From Eubacteriaceae bacterium ES3 (lineage in GTDB: Bacteria > Bacillota > Clostridia > Eubacteriales > Eubacteriaceae): a stretch of DNA of 64,000 nt. The notes under the pieces are model-generated. The model ran no database searches and was not told the origin of the DNA. It saw nothing but the letters and a program-made list of their open reading frames with translations. The DNA is taken from positions 1,668,680-1,732,679 of the forward strand of contig CP130741.1 in the NCBI GenBank assembly GCA_030586155.1. The letters run 5' to 3'. Positions 1,075-61,870 of the stretch are shown here, in pieces (within the stretch, counting starts at the first letter, position 1; every line of letters begins with the position of its first letter). Made by a program: the position numbers and the translations under genes.

Positions 1075-4000
1075 TTATTCTTCGCGAATTCCAATTGAAT
1101 AGATACCCCGATAAATATTACCTAGATTTCCATCAATTGAAATAGGTTCACAGGAACGGAAAACAAAGTCGTTAATTCGACACACATTATTTTGGTCATC
1201 TACGATAAGTCCACGACATTGAACAATACATACTTTGCCGATACTAACGGCTGTTACAGCTGCATGAGATGTTACCCCTCCTTTAGCTGTAATTAACCCA
1301 TCACAGGAAAAGATAAGCGGAATATCGTCTGGAACGGTGTCTGGTCTGATCAATATTACTGGCCTGTTACTTTTAAATGATCTGATTCTATTTATATCAT
1401 CAAGATCAAAAGCCAGATATCCGGAAAGTACTTCGTGACTCATTCCAATCCCATGCCCTACGAGTTCCATTTCTTGCGGTGATGGAATAAAGTAGCTTAC
1501 GGACTCTTTTTTTCTGATTTTCTGGTTTCTTGTTTGTAGAATATATAAATCTTTGGGATTTTCAGATTCAAAAGTAAATTCAATTTCCTGGTGAACATAA
1601 CCGTACTGATTAATTAAACGGTTTGCATACTCTGCTAGTTGTTTGAAAATTTCGGGGAATCGACTTTCAAGAGAAAAAGTCCCTTCTTTATAATGGTTTC
1701 TTTGTGCTTCACTAATTGGTAATGTACTTACCAGCCCTGAAACAACATCCTCTCCTTGAGAGCATAGCGAAAAATCACCATATAAATTTACACCAGGTTC
1801 ATCGGAAAAGGGACTGCTGGTAAAAACTACACCTGTACCAGAATTAACCGATTGATTACCCATAACCATTTGCTGAACAATTACAGCAGTTCCCCAGTCA
1901 TCTGCAATTTGCAGGTGATTGCGATAGGATTTAGCACTTTCTGAAGACCAGGATTCAAGAACGGCAGAAATTGCTTGTTTGAGTTGAATAAATGGGTCAT
2001 TTTCAAATTCAATATGATAATCGGATAATACCTGTTTATACTCGAATGCAATATTTTTCATTTGTAGTGGTGTAAAATCAATTTTCAATTGGATACCATT
2101 TTTAGTTTTATTTTCTGAAATAATATCATCAAAAATATCACGATTTAAACCAAAGGCCATGCCCCAACTTTGAAGGAAACGTCGATAACAATCCCAGGCA
2201 GTCCATTCAAACCCAGACTTTTGACTAAAAGCTAAAGCTATTTCATCATTCATCCCAACATTTAAAAATGTTTTCATGGCACCTGGTAATGAAATTGAAG
2301 AACCAGAGCGAATTGAGTAGAAAATCGGATTATTTGAACAGCCAAATTTCTTACCAGTAAAGTTTTCAATTCTAGTTAAATAATATGATAGTTGTGCATT
2401 AAAATCCTCCTGAATGATAGGATGTTTATTGATAATATCTTTGTGTCTGAAAACTTCTGTTGTCAAAACAAAACCAGCAGGCACATTAAATTTATATGAA
2501 ATCAGTTTTTTAAGAAAAAAAGCTTTTGCGCCAAGGAAAACAGGATTATCAATGTTATCTGTTTTCTCAGTTAATAAATCGAAAGAGATATCAGGATCAT
2601 ATGTCAACATACTTTTCAGGCTTTGTTCAGAATAATTTAATACTAAATGTCTTAAACTACTAATAATATCAGTTATAAAATTATCCAGGTCCTGAATCAA
2701 GAAGGCAGTTGCCAGGTTATCCCTTAAAAATCTCTCCGATTGCATATGCTTGAATCCCTTTGTTTCCGCATCTAAGTTTTCACTAATTTGAGGTATTATC
2801 ACATTAAGCGGTTTTTTGAATAAATCATAAAAGTATTCTTGAATAATTTGACGAATATCATTCGCCATGAACGAAAATAAGTTAATATACTGTTCAATCG
2901 AAAAACTTGGTGAAACAAGTCCGTATTTTAACATATCTAAATGTGAATTAAATCCTTGATTGACAATCCCATCAAGTTCAAGCCCCTCCTGAAAAAGAAG
3001 CAAAATCTGATGTATATTACGGAATGTTTTCACAGTAACATATTCAGCTTTAAATGGTTGGGTAATTTTTCGCATAAGTTTAGATACAAATTTTTCTAGA
3101 CGATATGTTAGTCCTAATGCGTCAAACTTTGCTTCGACGTACTCACCATACATTGAAGGGATATCTGCGGCTATATGACGTTTGTAGTAGATATTTTCAT
3201 TCGCTTCACTAGCTTTTTTCTCGGTTATGACAGTTTTTAAACGATGCATAATTTGATAAATAGCTTTTATAGAGCCATAATTGTCATTATCATTAAAACA
3301 TTTTTTTAACAGGTCGCGTTCTTTTACGAGATTTAAGTTATATGGATGAAGTATTTTGAAGACATCATCAGCTTCTAAAGAATATTTTTCGAGTAAATAA
3401 AAATACACATTAAATATCAGAAAAACTCGGCGATAATCCATATTTTGATCTGCTTCAAACTTGTCTGAGTTAGCAATCAAATACTCAATATTTTTAGTCA
3501 ATACTTGATTGGGATTTAAGGATAATCTTAAACATATTTTTTTTATTGCATCATGGACGCCTTTATACCATACTCCATCATTATCAAGGTTTTTATAAAT
3601 GTCCTTTGGTATTATACTTTTTAGTGGTTCTCTATTACCATCATACCAGTAATTAATTATTCTTTTCGTCAATTCTATATGCGTATTATTACTTTCAATA
3701 TGAATTTGTTTTCTTAAAAAATGTATTAGCCGGTCCTTTCGTCGTGATAACTCATCGATTTCTGTTGTTGCATCTCTTAATTCACCTTCGGCTCCGATTT
3801 CACGAAAATAAACTGGGAATATTCTTGCCAACTGTTTAATATCTCGATAAACTGGTTCAATATTGACATTTAAGAGCTTTGTAACATCTCTTTGAAAGAG
3901 GTCAGTATCGGATATAAATATTCCTCCTAATTTTAAATTAACGATCAATGCAGCTAGCAGTTCTCGCATAACTTTTGGGTCTTGTTCAATCAGTTCCATC

Positions 4001-5154
4001 CATATACGAATATTTTTAACATGGTTAAAATGTCCTAAAATTTGCCAATCTTCATTTAGAACAAGCCTTCCAGGGTATACGAAGCCTAGTTTAATTAATG
4101 ATTCCACAAAATAATTGATACTCAGGGAATCTTTTGTTTTAATAATTTCGGTCCCAAGGGTCTTAATACAGTCGAGAACCATATCACCATGCATTTCGAT
4201 GAGTGCGTTAAATTCACAAAATAGGGTATCCAAAAATGAAAATTCATCAATCGTTTCAGGTTCGTCAAATATATTTCGTAGATTGCGATTCATATCATAG
4301 ATTAGGTGATCCTTAAAGGGAATCATTCCGGGCAAGTGCAATAGATATATTAAATAATAAATGCTTTCATGATGAGATTCAAATTTATTGCTAAATCCTC
4401 TGAAATGGTTTGCTATATCATTGTAGTACCACTGAGACTTGAGCTTGGAAAAGGTGTTTGCATCACGACATTTTTGTTTAAGATGATTAAAAAAAGGCTT
4501 TCCAATTTCCCTAATTTTATTCTTATCGACATGGATAAATAAGTCCTTTTTTGTTTCAAACCATTGTTCGGCTTTGGTTGATTCTTCCCAGAAATTTATA
4601 CAACGCAATAGGATATCTTTCATAATCTGAACGATTTGGTTTGAGAATTCTTGAAAGCTACTAACTTTTTCGAAACTTATGCTTAATAAACCAGAGTTTT
4701 TAAGATATATGATTTGATAATCACTTAGATTATTTTCGAAAAGAATAATTAGTTCATTAATCGCTGCTAGCGGAACTTTCTTAAAGCCCGCAAGACGATC
4801 AATAAATCGAATATGGATTTGTATCAAATGCTCAAGTTGCTGGTCATTAAGTTTTAAACTGTAAACCTGGTTTATTATTTTAACCATAAATGTGTAGGCT
4901 TGTTCAGATTCTTCCATTTTTTCATATATCCAGCTATCATCTAAACAAATAATTTGTAATGTATTAATAACATAATTTTTATCACAATAACTGTGGTTCA
5001 ATTCAATGAGAAATTCATGGATACGATTGTAAATTCCAATATATTCTTTTGATAATTCTCCAAACCATTGTTGCCTTTCGGGAATAATAATATTTGTATC
5101 TCTAGTTTGGGACAGGTTAGCGCTTAATGCTTTAGATGAAAATTTTTTGTCCAT
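1075..5154 (-). CDS. Large dikinase-like protein (PPDK_N ATP-grasp plus phosphohistidine domain, no PEP barrel)
   Basis: A 1359-residue protein. Residues 1 to about 870 resemble nothing I recognise and look mostly helical. From about 880 it has the pyruvate phosphate dikinase/PEP synthase nucleotide-binding domain, including a YSIRSGS-type motif near 946 that ends in PGAM. A C-terminal swivelling domain has GGVTSHAAV at 1292-1300, with the phosphorylatable His at 1297. The protein ends about 60 residues after this motif, so the PEP/pyruvate TIM barrel of true PPDK and PpsA is missing. That layout recalls glucan water dikinases and rifampicin phosphotransferase, where ATP's phosphate passes through the histidine to another acceptor. 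The acceptor is unknown. IS110 copy 1 is inserted in its ribosome-binding site, leaving GAGGAG 7 bases before the ATG and separating the gene from its original upstream region. Confidence 0.75.
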   Translation of the reverse strand: MDKKFSSKALSANLSQTRDTNIIIPERQQWFGELSKEYIGIYNRIHEFLIELNHSYCDKNYVINTLQIICLDDSWIYEKMEESEQAYTFMVKIINQVYSLKLNDQQLEHLIQIHIRFIDRLAGFKKVPLAAINELIILFENNLSDYQIIYLKNSGLLSISFEKVSSFQEFSNQIVQIMKDILLRCINFWEESTKAEQWFETKKDLFIHVDKNKIREIGKPFFNHLKQKCRDANTFSKLKSQWYYNDIANHFRGFSNKFESHHESIYYLIYLLHLPGMIPFKDHLIYDMNRNLRNIFDEPETIDEFSFLDTLFCEFNALIEMHGDMVLDCIKTLGTEIIKTKDSLSINYFVESLIKLGFVYPGRLVLNEDWQILGHFNHVKNIRIWMELIEQDPKVMRELLAALIVNLKLGGIFISDTDLFQRDVTKLLNVNIEPVYRDIKQLARIFPVYFREIGAEGELRDATTEIDELSRRKDRLIHFLRKQIHIESNNTHIELTKRIINYWYDGNREPLKSIIPKDIYKNLDNDGVWYKGVHDAIKKICLRLSLNPNQVLTKNIEYLIANSDKFEADQNMDYRRVFLIFNVYFYLLEKYSLEADDVFKILHPYNLNLVKERDLLKKCFNDNDNYGSIKAIYQIMHRLKTVITEKKASEANENIYYKRHIAADIPSMYGEYVEAKFDALGLTYRLEKFVSKLMRKITQPFKAEYVTVKTFRNIHQILLLFQEGLELDGIVNQGFNSHLDMLKYGLVSPSFSIEQYINLFSFMANDIRQIIQEYFYDLFKKPLNVIIPQISENLDAETKGFKHMQSERFLRDNLATAFLIQDLDNFITDIISSLRHLVLNYSEQSLKSMLTYDPDISFDLLTEKTDNIDNPVFLGAKAFFLKKLISYKFNVPAGFVLTTEVFRHKDIINKHPIIQEDFNAQLSYYLTRIENFTGKKFGCSNNPIFYSIRSGSSISLPGAMKTFLNVGMNDEIALAFSQKSGFEWTAWDCYRRFLQSWGMAFGLNRDIFDDIISENKTKNGIQLKIDFTPLQMKNIAFEYKQVLSDYHIEFENDPFIQLKQAISAVLESWSSESAKSYRNHLQIADDWGTAVIVQQMVMGNQSVNSGTGVVFTSSPFSDEPGVNLYGDFSLCSQGEDVVSGLVSTLPISEAQRNHYKEGTFSLESRFPEIFKQLAEYANRLINQYGYVHQEIEFTFESENPKDLYILQTRNQKIRKKESVSYFIPSPQEMELVGHGIGMSHEVLSGYLAFDLDDINRIRSFKSNRPVILIRPDTVPDDIPLIFSCDGLITAKGGVTSHAAVTAVSIGKVCIVQCRGLIVDDQNNVCRINDFVFRSCEPISIDGNLGNIYRGIYSIGIREE

Positions 5155-5163
5155 AGAAATCTC

Positions 5164-5173
5164 CTCGTATTAT
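5164..5173 (+). promoter_or_regulatory. Left half of the IS110 circle-junction promoter
   Basis: TATTAT at 5168-5173 makes a -10 box only when the element ends are joined. The right end supplies TTGACT at 6733-6738. Thirteen bases to 6751 plus CTCG (5164-5167) give a 17-base spacer. Promoters formed at joined ends are known for circular IS110-family intermediates. Copy 2 has the same halves at 60975-60984 and 59410-59415. Confidence 0.65.
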
Positions 5174-5214
5174 ATAGTAGTAGTGTTTATAGTCCCTCTC
5201 CAAGGACTGTATGC

Positions 5215-5375
5215 TATACTTTTTGGAGATACTGTGGATTGGTTCTCATCTCCTACCACTAGATGGTTTTCGAAAGGCTCCAACCACAGGCTCTTTGTAT
5301 ATTTGTTAATCAGTTAGATACCGCATGACGGTTTATTTAGAACGAGGTTACAATCGCAGGGAGTACCCGTGGGTT
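5215..5375 (+). ncRNA. Predicted IS110 bridge RNA, copy 1
   Basis: The leader upstream of the transposase folds into two looped stems. The first has stem CTGTGGaTTGG (5232-5242) with CCAACCACAG (5280-5289) and an apical hairpin ACCA-CTAGA-TGGT (5255-5267). One side of its internal loop carries TCATCTCCT (5246-5254) and the other CGAAAGG (5271-5277). The second has stem TTGTA (5295-5299) with TACAA (5349-5353) and apical hairpin ACCG-CATGA-CGGT (5320-5332), with AGTTAG (5312-5317) and ACGAG (5342-5346) in the loop strands. The first loop matches the reconstructed target, the second the element's own ends. This is the architecture known for IS621-type bridge RNAs. The outer limits are approximate. 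Confidence 0.7.
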
Positions 5376-5410
5376 CCAAACAGTATTAAATTTATTCAAG
5401 GAGAACTGTT

Positions 5411-6586
5411 ATGATTTATGCAGGAATTGATGTTGCTAAAGATAAGCATGATTGCTTTATTACTAACTCAGATGGAGAGATACTCTTTAAAGCCTTTACC
5501 ATTATGAACAACCGTGATGGTTTTGATGATTTTTTTCAGAAGATTTCCTCTGTTGCAGAAGATTTAACTAAAGTAAAAGTAGGGCTGGAAGCCACAGGAC
5601 ATTACAGTTACAATCTTCTCGGTTATCTCGTTGATAAAGGTCTCGCCACCTATGTTATCAATCCGTTACATACCAATCTGTACAGAAAAAGTCTAAGCCT
5701 TAGACAGACGAAAACGGATAAGGTAGATGCCCGAACAATTGCTTCTATGATTATGTCTGATGTGAACTTAAAGTCCTACTCAGACACATCTTACCACAAT
5801 GAAGAATTGAAGTCATTAACCCGCTATCGTTTTGATAAAGTAAAGCAACGTTCGAAACTTAAACAATCTATTTCCAGACTTGTTACAATTCTTTTCCCTG
5901 AATTGGAAAAACTTGTTCCTACTCTTCATTTAACTTCTGTTTATGCATTGCTTTCTGAATTCCCGGGTGCTAGTGCTGTTGCGTCTGCTCACCTTACGCG
6001 GCTTTCCAAACTCATTGAAACAGCCTCTAAAGGTCGATATTCCAAAGATACCGCTGTTCGTTTCAGAGAAGCCGCTAGAACTTCTATTGGCTCAAATATG
6101 CCGGCTAAATCACTGGAACTAAAACACACCATTAAGCTTATTCAGGAACTTGATTGTGAAATTGATGAAATAGAATCTGAAATCAAAATCATAATTGATG
6201 AAATAAATTCTCCCATTCTTAGCATTCCTGGAATCAGTTATCGTATGGGGGCTATGATTATTGCTGAAATCGGTGATTTTAAACGCTTTGATACTCCTGA
6301 CAAAATACTTGCTTATGCTGGTCTGTCGCCATCAACTTACCAATCAGGACAACTTGATGGTGCCTATTCCCATATGGAGAAACGAGGCTCCAGATATCTT
6401 CGCTATGCATTATTTAATGCAACTAAATTTGTTTGTAACTGGGATCCAATATTTGCAGCTTATCTTGCAAAGAAACGTTCTGAAGGAAAACACTACAATG
6501 TCGCAATATCTCACGCGGCCAAAAAGCTTGTAAGAGTCATTTACCAGTTGGAAAGATCTGGGCAAACATACATTAAATCAGCTTAG
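5411..6586 (+). CDS. IS110-family transposase (DEDD/serine recombinase), copy 1
   Basis: A 391-residue protein with the two-part IS110 layout. The N-terminal RuvC-like domain starts with YAGIDVAKDKHDC, carrying the first catalytic Asp. The C-terminal Transposase_20 domain spans roughly 260-350, with the conserved SIPGIS motif and a Ser-rich SPSTYQSG stretch that holds the catalytic serine of the family. It would cut and rejoin DNA under guidance of the bridge RNA encoded just upstream. AAGGAG lies 6 bases before the ATG. The reading frame is intact and the protein is identical to that of copy 2, so the element is probably active or was until recently. In the inserted state it lacks an obvious complete promoter of its own. 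Confidence 0.95.
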   Translation: MIYAGIDVAKDKHDCFITNSDGEILFKAFTIMNNRDGFDDFFQKISSVAEDLTKVKVGLEATGHYSYNLLGYLVDKGLATYVINPLHTNLYRKSLSLRQTKTDKVDARTIASMIMSDVNLKSYSDTSYHNEELKSLTRYRFDKVKQRSKLKQSISRLVTILFPELEKLVPTLHLTSVYALLSEFPGASAVASAHLTRLSKLIETASKGRYSKDTAVRFREAARTSIGSNMPAKSLELKHTIKLIQELDCEIDEIESEIKIIIDEINSPILSIPGISYRMGAMIIAEIGDFKRFDTPDKILAYAGLSPSTYQSGQLDGAYSHMEKRGSRYLRYALFNATKFVCNWDPIFAAYLAKKRSEGKHYNVAISHAAKKLVRVIYQLERSGQTYIKSA

Positions 6587-6612
6587 ATTTTTTTAATAAA
6601 TATCTCTTTTTT

Positions 6613-6637
6613 GAGCACCTGCAAAGATGCTCTTTTT
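6613..6637 (+). terminator. Terminator of the IS110 transposase
   Basis: GAGCACCT-GCAA-AGATGCTC (one mismatch) followed by TTTTTG, 27 bases after the transposase stop. It lies inside the element and is repeated in copy 2. Confidence 0.7.
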
Positions 6638-6840
6638 GTCATGCAGTTTTCAATGTTCAGTTAACTCATTTTCAGTTCTTAACTTATCTGAACTGCATTT
6701 CTGCAATTCATTCAAATAATGTCAATTTAGACTTGACTTTTAATAGTTAGTCTTTCATATAGAATTTTCTGTGAAAAATATTTCCATTTATGACTTATAT
6801 ACCCAGAAAGAGTATTAACATAAAAAATATGATAAAATAT

Positions 6841-6909: not shown

Positions 6910-7061
6910 TGTTTAGTGTAAGCTATAAATACAGAAAGTTGCAAAAGCAAAATCCAGAGTATTGCAAGCTGCAAAATCCAGAATAATGCAAAAATCCATT
7001 GCGGGCAAAACTCAAATCAAATATCCTTGTATCTGACCAAAGAACAAGGAGGAAATGGAGA

Positions 7062-8594
7062 ATGCTCACAATGGATCAAATACATGATATCAGATTTCGG
7101 TTTTATGAGAAAGGGGAAAATATTTCACAAATCGCTGAAGCACTGCACATGGACTGGCGGACTGTCCGCAAATATATTGATCAGACGGATTTCAACGAAC
7201 CGGCACCCAGGCCGGCAGTTGAAAAAAAATTCTGTCCCAAGTTAGAACCTTATAAAGCGATCATCGATGAATGGCTGCTCAATGACAAATCTGCTCCCAG
7301 AAAACAGCGTCATACCGCCAAACGGGTGTTTGAACGTCTGCAGAAAGAAACACCCGGTTTTGACTGTTCCTATCGGACCGTTGCCAGTTATTATGCAGAA
7401 AAACACAAAGAAATTTTTAAACAGAACCCAAAAGCATTTCTGCCACTGGTACATCAACCAGGCGAAGCGCAGGTCGATTTTGGCACTGCTGAATTTTATG
7501 AAAATGGCCGCAAGCTGACCGGAAAATACCTGGAGGTCTCTTTTCCGTACAGCAACAAAGGTTATCTTCAGCTGTTCTACGGCGAAAACATGGAATGCCT
7601 GCTGGAAGGACTTGATGCCATCTTTCGGCATATCGGGTGTGTTCCGGCTGAACTCTGGTTTGACAACACAAAAGTTATTGTTACGGACATTATCCGTGGC
7701 GGTGGGCGTAAACTCACCGAAAAATTCGAGCGTTTCCGGGAACATTACGGTTTCAAGGCAGTCTTCATGAATCCAAACGAAGGCCATGAAAAAGGCAATG
7801 TTGAGAACAAGGTCGGCTATCAGCGCCGTAACTTTCTGGTGCCGGTTCCGCACTTTCTGTCACTGCCGGATTATAATCGTGGTTTGTTTAATCAATGCGA
7901 GGAGGATGCACAGCGGGATCATTACCGGTACGATGAGACGATTGAATCGCGTTTTCAGGCTGATCTGAAGGCATCGCGCGAATTGCCGTCTGTTCCTTTT
8001 AATCTTAATGGGCATAAGACCCTGAAAGCCGACAAATGGGCAAAGGTTTATCTGAATAAAGGCAGGCATGCCTATTCAGTGGCCCCTAAATATGCCCAGT
8101 GTTCGGTTCATCTGGTACTGACGTCAGCTGCTGTTATCATTCAGGATGAAAACTTTAGAGAAATCGTCCGCCATCGACGATTATACGGTGACAGCAAACA
8201 GGAACAGATGGACTGGCTGCCCTATCTGAAGCAGTTATCTCAGCGACCACGAGCGGTCAAATATTCGGGAATTTATGAAATGATGCCCGAAACCATGCGG
8301 TCTTTTTTGGCCTCCTGCTCAGACAGTGAAACCGCTCAGGTCATCAGACTGCTTTCAGAACTGACCAATCGATCCGGTTTTGAGAGCGCTCTGAATACAG
8401 TCGATCATGCCATTGCCTGTCAGGTAAAGGATGCTGACAGTCTTGCAAGTCTCTACCGGAGGCTGTATGCCGATGTTCCTGAACTTCCGGCCATGAATCT
8501 GCAGCCCGGAATTCCTCAAATGCAGCCGCTGATGCCGAATCTGGATGCTTATGACCGGCTACTTAATCAGAAGGAGGTTAGCCCCCATGCTTGA
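7062..8594 (+). CDS. istA: IS21-family transposase IstA
   Basis: A 510-residue DDE transposase. An N-terminal helix-turn-helix (about 15-45) binds the element ends. The catalytic triad lies in the motifs VDFG (first Asp), WFDNTK (second Asp) and GNVENKVG (Glu). I start it at ATG 7062 because AAGGAGG lies 10-16 bases upstream. The longer frame from 6999 has no ribosome-binding site and would add residues absent from the family. Its end overlaps the istB start by 8 bases, so the two are translationally coupled. IstA joins the DNA ends to the target, with IstB choosing and bending the target. Confidence 0.93.
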   Translation: MLTMDQIHDIRFRFYEKGENISQIAEALHMDWRTVRKYIDQTDFNEPAPRPAVEKKFCPKLEPYKAIIDEWLLNDKSAPRKQRHTAKRVFERLQKETPGFDCSYRTVASYYAEKHKEIFKQNPKAFLPLVHQPGEAQVDFGTAEFYENGRKLTGKYLEVSFPYSNKGYLQLFYGENMECLLEGLDAIFRHIGCVPAELWFDNTKVIVTDIIRGGGRKLTEKFERFREHYGFKAVFMNPNEGHEKGNVENKVGYQRRNFLVPVPHFLSLPDYNRGLFNQCEEDAQRDHYRYDETIESRFQADLKASRELPSVPFNLNGHKTLKADKWAKVYLNKGRHAYSVAPKYAQCSVHLVLTSAAVIIQDENFREIVRHRRLYGDSKQEQMDWLPYLKQLSQRPRAVKYSGIYEMMPETMRSFLASCSDSETAQVIRLLSELTNRSGFESALNTVDHAIACQVKDADSLASLYRRLYADVPELPAMNLQPGIPQMQPLMPNLDAYDRLLNQKEVSPHA

Positions 8595-9348
8595 CAATGA
8601 AATCTCTGAATGCTGCCGGAAACTGCGTCTCAGCCGGAACCTGGCCGAATTGGCTCAGACTGCCGAAGGTGACAGTCATCAGGAATATCTGTACCGGATT
8701 CTCAGCGAGGAACTCCAGTATCGGGAGATCTCCCGGACTGAAAAGCTGGTCAACAGTGCCGGATTCTACAGCCGTCAGACTTTTGAAGGCTACCGCTTTG
8801 ACGAAATCACGCTGCCTGCGGATCTGACCCCTGAAAGCCTGAAATCACTTGCTTTTATTAATGACCACAAAAATATCATCATGTACGGCGGTACCGGAAC
8901 CGGTAAAACCATGTTGTCAACCGCCCTTGGTGTGGCAGCCTGCCTTCAGGGTATACCAGTTAAATTTTTTCGAACAGCGGCACTGGTCAATAAGCTTTCT
9001 GAAGCAAAAGCAGCCGGAACATTGACTGCTTTTCTTAAAAAACTGAATAAAGCTGAGTTGCTTATTCTCGATGAATATGGCTATGTGCCGCTGGATCGGA
9101 CGGGCTCCCAGCTGCTGTTTGAGATTATCTCCGACTGTTATCAGAACAGAAGTATTATTCTTAATACCAATCTGGAATTTTCCCGATGGGTCAATGTCCT
9201 TTATGATGAACAGATGACGGCTGCCATGCTGGATCGGTTGCTGCATCACTGTCATCTGATTTTATTCCCGGGTCCCAGTAACCGGATGCGAGAATCCAGC
9301 ATTAATGACTTATATCGATCGATTTCGGAGAATCAGCCGAAAAACTGA
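8587..9348 (+). CDS. istB: IS21-family ATPase helper IstB
   Basis: A 253-residue AAA+ ATPase related to DnaC. Walker A is GGTGTGKT (about residues 100-107) and Walker B is LLILDEYGY. IstB assembles on target DNA and stimulates IstA. I start it at ATG 8587, preceded by AAGGAGG and overlapping the istA stop. The in-frame ATG at 8545 lies inside istA and lacks a ribosome-binding site. It is full length and intact, so the element could still move. Confidence 0.93.
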   Translation: MLDNEISECCRKLRLSRNLAELAQTAEGDSHQEYLYRILSEELQYREISRTEKLVNSAGFYSRQTFEGYRFDEITLPADLTPESLKSLAFINDHKNIIMYGGTGTGKTMLSTALGVAACLQGIPVKFFRTAALVNKLSEAKAAGTLTAFLKKLNKAELLILDEYGYVPLDRTGSQLLFEIISDCYQNRSIILNTNLEFSRWVNVLYDEQMTAAMLDRLLHHCHLILFPGPSNRMRESSINDLYRSISENQPKN

Positions 9349-59380: not shown

Positions 59381-59510
59381 CATTTAGGTTTGAAAGACTA
59401 ACTATTAAAAGTCAAGTCTAAATTGACATTATTTGAATGAATTGCAGAAATGCAGTTCAGATAAGTTAAGAACTGAAAATGAGTTAACTGAACATTGAAA
59501 ACTGCATGAC

Positions 59511-59535
59511 AAAAAGAGCATCTTTGCAGGTGCTC
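59511..59535 (-). terminator. Terminator of the IS110 transposase, copy 2
   Basis: Mirror of 6613-6637: an imperfect GAGCACCT/AGATGCTC stem and TTTTT on the minus strand. Confidence 0.7.
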
Positions 59536-59561
59536 AAAAAAGAGATATTTATTAAAAAAAT

Positions 59562-60737
59562 CTAAGCTGATTTAATGTATGTTTGCCCAGATCTTTCCAA
59601 CTGGTAAATGACTCTTACAAGCTTTTTGGCCGCGTGAGATATTGCGACATTGTAGTGTTTTCCTTCAGAACGTTTCTTTGCAAGATAAGCTGCAAATATT
59701 GGATCCCAGTTACAAACAAATTTAGTTGCATTAAATAATGCATAGCGAAGATATCTGGAGCCTCGTTTCTCCATATGGGAATAGGCACCATCAAGTTGTC
59801 CTGATTGGTAAGTTGATGGCGACAGACCAGCATAAGCAAGTATTTTGTCAGGAGTATCAAAGCGTTTAAAATCACCGATTTCAGCAATAATCATAGCCCC
59901 CATACGATAACTGATTCCAGGAATGCTAAGAATGGGAGAATTTATTTCATCAATTATGATTTTGATTTCAGATTCTATTTCATCAATTTCACAATCAAGT
60001 TCCTGAATAAGCTTAATGGTGTGTTTTAGTTCCAGTGATTTAGCCGGCATATTTGAGCCAATAGAAGTTCTAGCGGCTTCTCTGAAACGAACAGCGGTAT
60101 CTTTGGAATATCGACCTTTAGAGGCTGTTTCAATGAGTTTGGAAAGCCGCGTAAGGTGAGCAGACGCAACAGCACTAGCACCCGGGAATTCAGAAAGCAA
60201 TGCATAAACAGAAGTTAAATGAAGAGTAGGAACAAGTTTTTCCAATTCAGGGAAAAGAATTGTAACAAGTCTGGAAATAGATTGTTTAAGTTTCGAACGT
60301 TGCTTTACTTTATCAAAACGATAGCGGGTTAATGACTTCAATTCTTCATTGTGGTAAGATGTGTCTGAGTAGGACTTTAAGTTCACATCAGACATAATCA
60401 TAGAAGCAATTGTTCGGGCATCTACCTTATCCGTTTTCGTCTGTCTAAGGCTTAGACTTTTTCTGTACAGATTGGTATGTAACGGATTGATAACATAGGT
60501 GGCGAGACCTTTATCAACGAGATAACCGAGAAGATTGTAACTGTAATGTCCTGTGGCTTCCAGCCCTACTTTTACTTTAGTTAAATCTTCTGCAACAGAG
60601 GAAATCTTCTGAAAAAAATCATCAAAACCATCACGGTTGTTCATAATGGTAAAGGCTTTAAAGAGTATCTCTCCATCTGAGTTAGTAATAAAGCAATCAT
60701 GCTTATCTTTAGCAACATCAATTCCTGCATAAATCAT
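59562..60737 (-). CDS. IS110-family transposase, copy 2
   Basis: 391 residues, identical in sequence to the protein at 5411-6586, with the same YAGIDVAKDKHDC and SPSTYQSG motifs. Full length with its own AAGGAG. Identity of both copies means a recent transposition or homogenisation. Confidence 0.95.
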   Translation of the reverse strand: MIYAGIDVAKDKHDCFITNSDGEILFKAFTIMNNRDGFDDFFQKISSVAEDLTKVKVGLEATGHYSYNLLGYLVDKGLATYVINPLHTNLYRKSLSLRQTKTDKVDARTIASMIMSDVNLKSYSDTSYHNEELKSLTRYRFDKVKQRSKLKQSISRLVTILFPELEKLVPTLHLTSVYALLSEFPGASAVASAHLTRLSKLIETASKGRYSKDTAVRFREAARTSIGSNMPAKSLELKHTIKLIQELDCEIDEIESEIKIIIDEINSPILSIPGISYRMGAMIIAEIGDFKRFDTPDKILAYAGLSPSTYQSGQLDGAYSHMEKRGSRYLRYALFNATKFVCNWDPIFAAYLAKKRSEGKHYNVAISHAAKKLVRVIYQLERSGQTYIKSA

Positions 60738-60772
60738 AACAGTTCTCCTTGAATAAATTTAATACTGTTTGG

Positions 60773-60933
60773 AACCCACGGGTACTCCCTGCGATTGTAA
60801 CCTCGTTCTAAATAAACCGTCATGCGGTATCTAACTGATTAACAAATATACAAAGAGCCTGTGGTTGGAGCCTTTCGAAAACCATCTAGTGGTAGGAGAT
60901 GAGAACCAATCCACAGTATCTCCAAAAAGTATA
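60773..60933 (-). ncRNA. Predicted IS110 bridge RNA, copy 2
   Basis: Same sequence as 5215-5375. The target loop strands lie at 60894-60902 (TCATCTCCT on the minus strand) and 60871-60877 (CGAAAGG). The first matches this copy's left target TCATTTCCT at 8 of 9 positions. Confidence 0.7.
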
Positions 60934-60991
60934 GCATACAGTCCTTGGAGAGGGACTATAAACACTACTACTATATAATACGAGGAAATGA

Positions 60992-61870
60992 ATGACTAGA
61001 GATTATTTAATTAAAGGTACTGCCGCCCAAAATCAGATACGAATTTTGGGTGCCGTAACAACAAACCTTGTTCAAAAATCCATCGTTCTTCATCAAACAT
61101 CCCCTACAGTATCAGTTGCAATGGGACGATTGCTGACTGCAGGCACTTTAATGGGAGCAATGATGAAGAGTGAAGATGAATTATTGACATTGAAAGTTCT
61201 TGGTGAAGGCGAACTTCAGGGAATGCTTGTTACTGCTGACTCAAAAGGTTTTGTTAAGGGTTACCCATATGTTAAGATCCTAAAACCGGATCCTTTGGAA
61301 GCTATCAGCGTTTCTTCCGCAATTGGAAATGGATCTTTGACTGTAATTAAAGATATAGGTTTAAAAGAGCCCTATATCGGATATTCCCCTTTAGTAACGG
61401 GTGAAATAGCTGAAGACTTAACCTATTATTATGCTAAATCGGAGCAAATACCGACCTCAGTTTCACTGGGAGTACTGATGGATTCTCAAACAACTGTAAA
61501 ACAGGCTGGTGGCTTTATTATCCAATTAATGCCAGATACTAATGATGACGTTATTTCTGAGTTGGAAAAAGCATTATCACAAATGCCTTCTATGACTAAA
61601 CTATTAGAGGCTGGTCAAACGCCCGAAGAGATTTTCACTGACCTCTTTGCTAATCTTGGTTTTAAAGTAAATGAAACTCAGGAAATTGCCTATCATTGCA
61701 ATTGCTCGCTTGATAAAGTGACGAAAGCACTTATTTCTTTAGGGTCTGAAGAAATTGAAAAAATGATTTTAGAGGATAAACCGATCGAGATGCACTGTGA
61801 TTTTTGTGAAACAAATTATCCTTTTACAACAAACCAACTTAAAACAATTTTACAGGAAATAGAAAATTAA
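60992..61870 (+). CDS. hslO: Redox-regulated chaperone Hsp33
   Basis: 292 residues. Oxidation activates this holdase chaperone against protein aggregation. The zinc-binding redox switch is CNC (CNCSLDKV) and CDFC near the C-terminus. The start is ATG 60992. The IS110 end supplies CGAGGA directly upstream, replacing part of the ancestral AAAGGA. An ATG at 60988 ends after three codons. It now has no native upstream promoter unless rlmH transcripts read through the element. Confidence 0.93.
   Translation: MTRDYLIKGTAAQNQIRILGAVTTNLVQKSIVLHQTSPTVSVAMGRLLTAGTLMGAMMKSEDELLTLKVLGEGELQGMLVTADSKGFVKGYPYVKILKPDPLEAISVSSAIGNGSLTVIKDIGLKEPYIGYSPLVTGEIAEDLTYYYAKSEQIPTSVSLGVLMDSQTTVKQAGGFIIQLMPDTNDDVISELEKALSQMPSMTKLLEAGQTPEEIFTDLFANLGFKVNETQEIAYHCNCSLDKVTKALISLGSEEIEKMILEDKPIEMHCDFCETNYPFTTNQLKTILQEIEN

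Follow-up and report, generated by a model that had tools for sequence, protein, structure and literature searches.

A predicted IS110-type bridge RNA whose target guides spell the complement of Shine-Dalgarno sequences in Clostridia

The bridge RNA of IS621, an element of the IS110 group, is encoded in the leader and contains a target loop and a donor loop (Durrant et al. 2024, PMC11208160; structures in PMC11208158). Its left guide pairs with the bottom strand and its right guide with the top strand around a CT core, a promoter forms at the junction of the element ends, and the active site of the transposase combines DEDD residues with a serine. Counterparts of all these features occur in an IS110-family element that we analysed in a 64,000-nucleotide stretch of the Eubacteriaceae bacterium ES3 genome (contig CP130741.1, forward-strand positions 1,668,680 to 1,732,679; hereafter the window). 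In E. coli, IS621 goes to REP elements, whereas the lineage described here targets Shine-Dalgarno sequences (SDs), in Clostridia. The leader of this element is, very probably, an IS110-type bridge RNA whose target guides spell the complement of an SD, directing insertion to positions just before start codons. An earlier note on the window had read the leader as a bispecific bridge RNA with an SD-directed guide; covariation between guides and targets, between guides and element ends, and within stems supports the bispecific reading, and the SD direction is right as well, being a trait of the whole element group and not of one element.

A guide RNA derived from a noncoding region, as proposed here, has also been described for ISEc21 and the IS1111 group (seekRNA; Siddiquee et al. 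2024, PMC11187229), and in those elements guide changes track target changes (ISEc11/ISXne4, ISEc21/ISMch6), as they do in our data. The IS110 type in that study has its guide region upstream of the transposase, which is the arrangement at this locus; the IS1111 group has its noncoding guide region downstream of the transposase, and by this position the present element does not fit it. The targets reported for seekRNA elements also differ (for ISEc21, codons within IS3-family transposase genes), and PMC11187229 makes no mention of SD targets. REP-targeting insertion sequences (Tobes and Pareja 2006, PMC1525189) similarly use a repeated extragenic motif as a landing site, but theirs are REP palindromes and not translation signals. 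Like the present element, TnGBS, ISLre2 and some ISKra4 elements (PMC3942029) land on an expression signal, immediately ahead of genes and in a fixed orientation; unlike it, they are DDE elements directed by protein, without a guide RNA, to positions 15-17 bp upstream of sigma-A promoters. No report of SD-directed IS110 elements was found in a literature search that did not include bioRxiv, most subscription journals or supplements, so that an earlier report is possible. While the bridge RNA itself is known, the SD-directed target class appears to be new.

The element ends were fixed by comparing six genomic copies and uninterrupted orthologous sites (Table 1). The earlier note had worked from two copies in the window; in the host genome, a single contig of 3.39 Mb, there are six. 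The transposase gene is intact in four of them, a fifth has lost one base, and the last is broken up by a different insertion sequence. The sequence common to the copies runs from CTCGTATT to TTAGTCT, and the shared CT is therefore the core. The target reads (..ATCTC)-CT-(TTC..), and the element ends, once joined, read AGTTAGT-CT-CGTATT. Two of the sites are uninterrupted in a species of the same genus (G006), where a single CT is present and the junction shows neither duplication nor loss. Judged from the six copies and two empty orthologous sites, insertion is thus scarless at the shared core dinucleotide and occurs in one orientation, as is typical of the IS110 group; a long noncoding left end (247 nt, 5' of the transposase gene) and a right end of 167 nt also conform to that group. 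Solitary bridge RNAs lacking a transposase were not found in the host genome, where the bridge RNA model matches exactly the six copies. In copy L005 (G000:C1:1533289-1534896), the one-base deletion splits the transposase frame (1-212 and 209-391), and the sixth copy, L006 (G000:C1:1514959-1517444), carries an 874-bp insertion sequence after element position ~302, with a DDE-type transposase in two frames that looks IS5-like by eye.

In its minimum-energy fold, the 247-nt leader forms a target loop and a donor loop, and the guide pairs lie on opposite sides of hairpin-capped internal loops, as the earlier note had described. The motifs and positions it gave also hold: TCATCTCCT at 5246-5254, CGAAAGG at 5271-5277, AGTTAG at 5312-5317 and again at 6745-6750, and ACGAG at 5342-5346, together with its target-loop match to the window copies at seven of nine positions (copy 1) and eight of nine (copy 2). 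The left target guide, TCTCATCTCCT, has the sequence of the left target's top strand, the complement of an SD. A search of Rfam with the leader matched no relevant family.

Each of the six host copies has entered the SD of a gene; the orientation is always the same, with the transposase pointing away from that gene. In gene sense, their left flanks read AGGAGATTTCTATG, AGGAGATTTTTATG, AGGAGGTTTTATAATG, AGGAAATGAATG, AGGAGATAAATATG and AGGAGATGAATTTCTATG, and in each case AGGA(G) and the start codon stay on the gene side. We read the open reading frame beside copy 2 as Hsp33-like. Genome-wide pattern searches detected 27 exact sites for TCTCCTTTC, of which, by our own count, 16-18 are closely followed by a start codon (ATG or GTG), indicating that the guide by itself is largely specific for ribosome-binding sites.

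Scanning with an alignment of five relatives yielded 80 loci in bacterial genomes (72-92% protein identity), mostly in Lachnospiraceae and other Clostridia, and 20 further loci from viral contigs, giving ~100 relatives at 68-92% protein identity. The leader plan is alike in all of them with few exceptions; a subset (L039, L041, L044, L047, L118 and others) has leaders ~45 nt longer (~292 nt), with an extra hairpin region before the target loop. A consensus built from 50 leaders contains 29 pairs, with 98.2% of cells paired, and both-side (compensatory) changes are seen in 16 of these pairs, compared with 5.4 in shuffles and 0-5 in slid structures. The target-binding and donor-binding internal loops expected of the IS110 group are thus conserved and covarying in these 50 sequences, and a leader devoid of conserved structure, which the earlier note had set as grounds for dropping its reading, was not seen.

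Guides and targets change together. Left guides agree with their own left targets at 73% of positions versus 48% when permuted (z 16.4; 87 distinct sites, 70 guide classes), and right guides with their own right targets at 68% versus 41% (z 16.6; 73 sites), in a test that is uncorrected for relatedness. Because the permutation ignores relatedness, the clearest evidence comes from atypical right guides, which predict unusual targets at 32 sites, with five of five positions matching at 18 sites and four of five at eight. For example, the right target guide TTAAGTTAG goes with CT-AACTT (L049, L050), TATTTATAG with CT-ATAAA (L057) and TCATACGAG with CT-CGTAT (L070, L078, L083). As in the IS110 group, the target guides match the insertion target on the bottom and top strands and the donor guides match the joined ends: left ends and right donor guides vary in concert (CTCGT/ACGAG, CTTGT/ACAAG, CTACT/AGTAG and CTGCT/AGCAG, with one exception), and the left donor guide, AGTTAG in nearly all elements, becomes AGTCAG in L135 and AGTTGG in L013 with matching right-end changes. 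The covariation of target-loop bases with insertion sites that the earlier note had named as a test is therefore strong across the 87 sites, and identical guides with unrelated targets, which would have spoken against it, were not observed: apart from a few cases such as L058 and L089, elements that share a guide also share the type of target. In Chakrabartyella piscis CP092441 (L059-L067), the right-guide versions TTAAGTAAG and TTAATAAAG coexist, each with a correspondingly different right target. At L116, a copy sits inside the left target guide of another, related copy (TGTGGATTGGTATAAGCCCC/CTTGTATTAT), as would be expected of a guide that is identical to one half of its target.

These data bear on the suggestion that the leader is an ordinary structured 5' untranslated region controlling transposase translation or termination, with a likeness to the target that arose by chance. 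The leader does lie ahead of the transposase, and there is a good SD at its end, but its loops vary exactly at the positions matching targets and ends, jointly with them, while its stems compensate; moreover, a left and right guide pair of such quality appeared in only 162 of 200,000 first-order random leaders (chance ~0.0008). We regard this explanation as largely refuted and its residual probability as minimal. A second suggestion, that the protein picks SD-like DNA and the RNA only helps, could draw on the SD-type targets and related proteins common to many elements. However, in a relative from G213 (42% identity; L199-L201), the guide ACACCCACCT matches the repeat target of that element, with CACACCCACCT and AGGTGGGGTCACA, and the element sits in the CACACCCACCT repeat instead of an SD. 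Such natural retargeting with a matching guide speaks against site choice by protein only, as do two guide versions with two right-half targets in one genome (L059/L065 versus L060/L061), leaving this suggestion highly improbable.

The placement seen in the host recurs across the group. An ATG with an open frame follows the core by 7-18 nt, in gene sense, at 57 of 86 sites, compared with a same-flank ATG rate of 13.5% at AGG (p = 2.6e-29) and 25.5% at AGGAG. A match of 5 nt or more to the complement of the 16S ribosomal RNA (rRNA) tail is present in 77% of the 64 distinct left guides, versus 20% when shuffled, and guides shifted in register still meet the SD (L069, AGTGAGGTGAGAAGTATG; L077, AGAGAGGACGATAGTTTG; L054, AGAAGGTGAAGCAGATG). 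Multi-copy elements of ~30-42% identity in five genomes (G289, G146, G280, G239 and G248) have 22 of 24 sites just before an ATG; in G289 and some single-copy relatives, on our own reading, the SD part appears to be carried in the right guide (GGAG), with the SD split there. The resemblance of the guide to the 16S rRNA tail could also mean that it pairs additionally with SDs on host mRNAs and acts in trans as a repressor of translation. We consider this very unlikely, given the shortness of the guide and its position within a structured loop, and none of the present results supports it. Selection against guides matching the 16S rRNA 3' end, itself the SD complement, gave no signal (seven observed, 7.3 expected).

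Several observations weigh against SD-guided insertion as the full account. About one third of the sites have no clear ATG at the expected distance, some of them showing TTG or GTG starts with long open reading frames and others looking intragenic; the guide in the window matches its six targets at only 53 of 78 positions, implying that mismatches are tolerated; and relatives contribute to the permutation test as noted above. One could thus accept the leader as a bridge RNA and attribute the SD bias to survival, with insertions at many guide-matching or A/T-rich sites followed by loss of the intragenic ones. Consistent with this, about a third of the 27 exact TCTCCTTTC sites in the host are not before a start codon, and mismatched sites are in use. 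Survival, however, cannot produce covariation between guides and targets, and the left guides are themselves SD complements, also across changed registers. We therefore think it unlikely that survival explains the bias, and favour guides that direct the element to SDs. More broadly, RNA-guided transposition in Clostridia probably has in the SD a recurrent, evolved landing site. It is used by diverse IS110 elements down to ~30% protein identity, which carry the SD-type sequence in the left guide, although a sister set apparently has it in the right one, and it provides a generic target while coding sequences are spared.

Beyond these elements, an IS110-like element in G198 (L218-L221; 29% identity) has AAGGAGG followed by an ATG past its right end in all four copies, which run in the direction of the gene, opposite to the elements above, and a guide-like TAGGAGGTTTG in the region downstream of its transposase. 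This element possibly represents independent SD targeting.

The transposase scores above cut-off with Pfam PF01548 and PF02371 and with NCBIfam NF033542 ('IS110 family RNA-guided transposase'), and a profile of its family hits two bridge recombinases of solved structure, IS621 (8wt6) and ISCro4 (9t56). Its residues D7, E60, D103, D106 and S312 align with the IS621 catalytic residues D11, E60, D102, D105 and S241 (PMC11208158), and the DEDD residues and S312 are conserved as invariant columns, giving the DEDD RuvC-like domain and the Tnp domain with a catalytic serine that mark the IS110 group. A TIGR-Tas endonuclease model gave a weak, sub-threshold match to the transposase (window 5411-6583; 24 bits, cut-off 100).

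Table 1 Positions of the element, its predicted guide RNA and its targets in the window
Feature	Position	Strand	Basis or remarks
IS110-family element, copy 1	5164-6753	+	CT core at both ends: 5164-5165, 6752-6753
Target of copy 1	5152-5165	-	AGGAGATTTCTATG in gene sense; holds the SD (intact after insertion) and start codon of PEP-utilising-enzyme gene 1075-5154
Predicted 5' stem-loop of bridge RNA	5198-5228	+	minimum-energy fold
Target-binding loop	5232-5289	+	stem CTGTGGATTGG / CCAACCACAG, inner hairpin ACCAC...GATGGT; helices 1 and 2 of covarying consensus
Left target guide TCTCATCTCCT	5244-5254	+	last CT is the core; covaries with left target
Right target guide TTTCGAAAG	5268-5276	+	AG pairs with core CT; complementary to right target CTTTC
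Donor-binding loop	5293-5361	+	helices 3-5 of consensus
Left donor guide AGTTAG	5312-5317	+	equals element right end 6745-6750
Right donor guide GAACGAG	5340-5346	+	complementary to left end CTCGT
IS110 transposase (RNA-guided recombinase), 391 aa	5411-6586	+	Pfam, NCBIfam, structure alignment, invariant columns
-35 box TTGACT	6733-6738	+	right end; goes with -10 TATTAT 5168-5173 in left end
Copy 2 of element	59395-60984	-	in gene sense AGGAAATGA-ATG, before open reading frame 60992-61870 (+); site uninterrupted in G006

The boxes TTGACT and TATTAT form a promoter with 17-nt spacing only if the element ends are joined in a circle. As read from sequence only, TTGACT/A-17-TATTAT or TATAAT spans the joined ends in 85 of 95 parsed elements, in keeping with the IS110 group. 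Simple scans found no outward promoter in the left end able to drive the gene, and no intrinsic terminator. Directly beside copy 1, at window 6999-9348, are two genes (531 and 267 aa) that by eye resemble an IS21 pair.

From the copies, ends, empty sites, targets, fold, covariation and SD positions, all visible in the DNA itself, we infer transcription, RNA-protein binding, pairing with DNA, circle formation and transposition as follows. Excision would join the element ends in a circle, completing a promoter that would transcribe the leader and transposase, as in IS621 (PMC11208160). The guides of the target loop would pair with the target, and those of the donor loop with the element ends joined in the circle; strand exchange by the transposase at the shared CT would follow, without duplication. 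Since the target guides spell the SD complement, the element would insert in one orientation just before start codons, pointing away from the gene. In the register found in the window, the cut falls upstream of AGGA(G), so that the gene keeps its SD and start codon but is separated from its own promoter by 1.6 kb. The advantage may lie in the SD serving as a common landing site that spares coding sequence.

In the cited papers, the best-described natural target of a bridge RNA is a single repeat, the REP element. The present, widespread lineage suggests how an RNA-guided element may exploit a signal found before most genes while reading frames stay whole, and raises a testable question of guide evolution, namely what holds guides to the SD even as their register and flanks change. 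Its ~70 natural guide/target pairs could be used to derive design rules for bridge RNAs, and where an insertion in a clostridial genome lies immediately ahead of a start codon, a change in the expression of that gene is likely.
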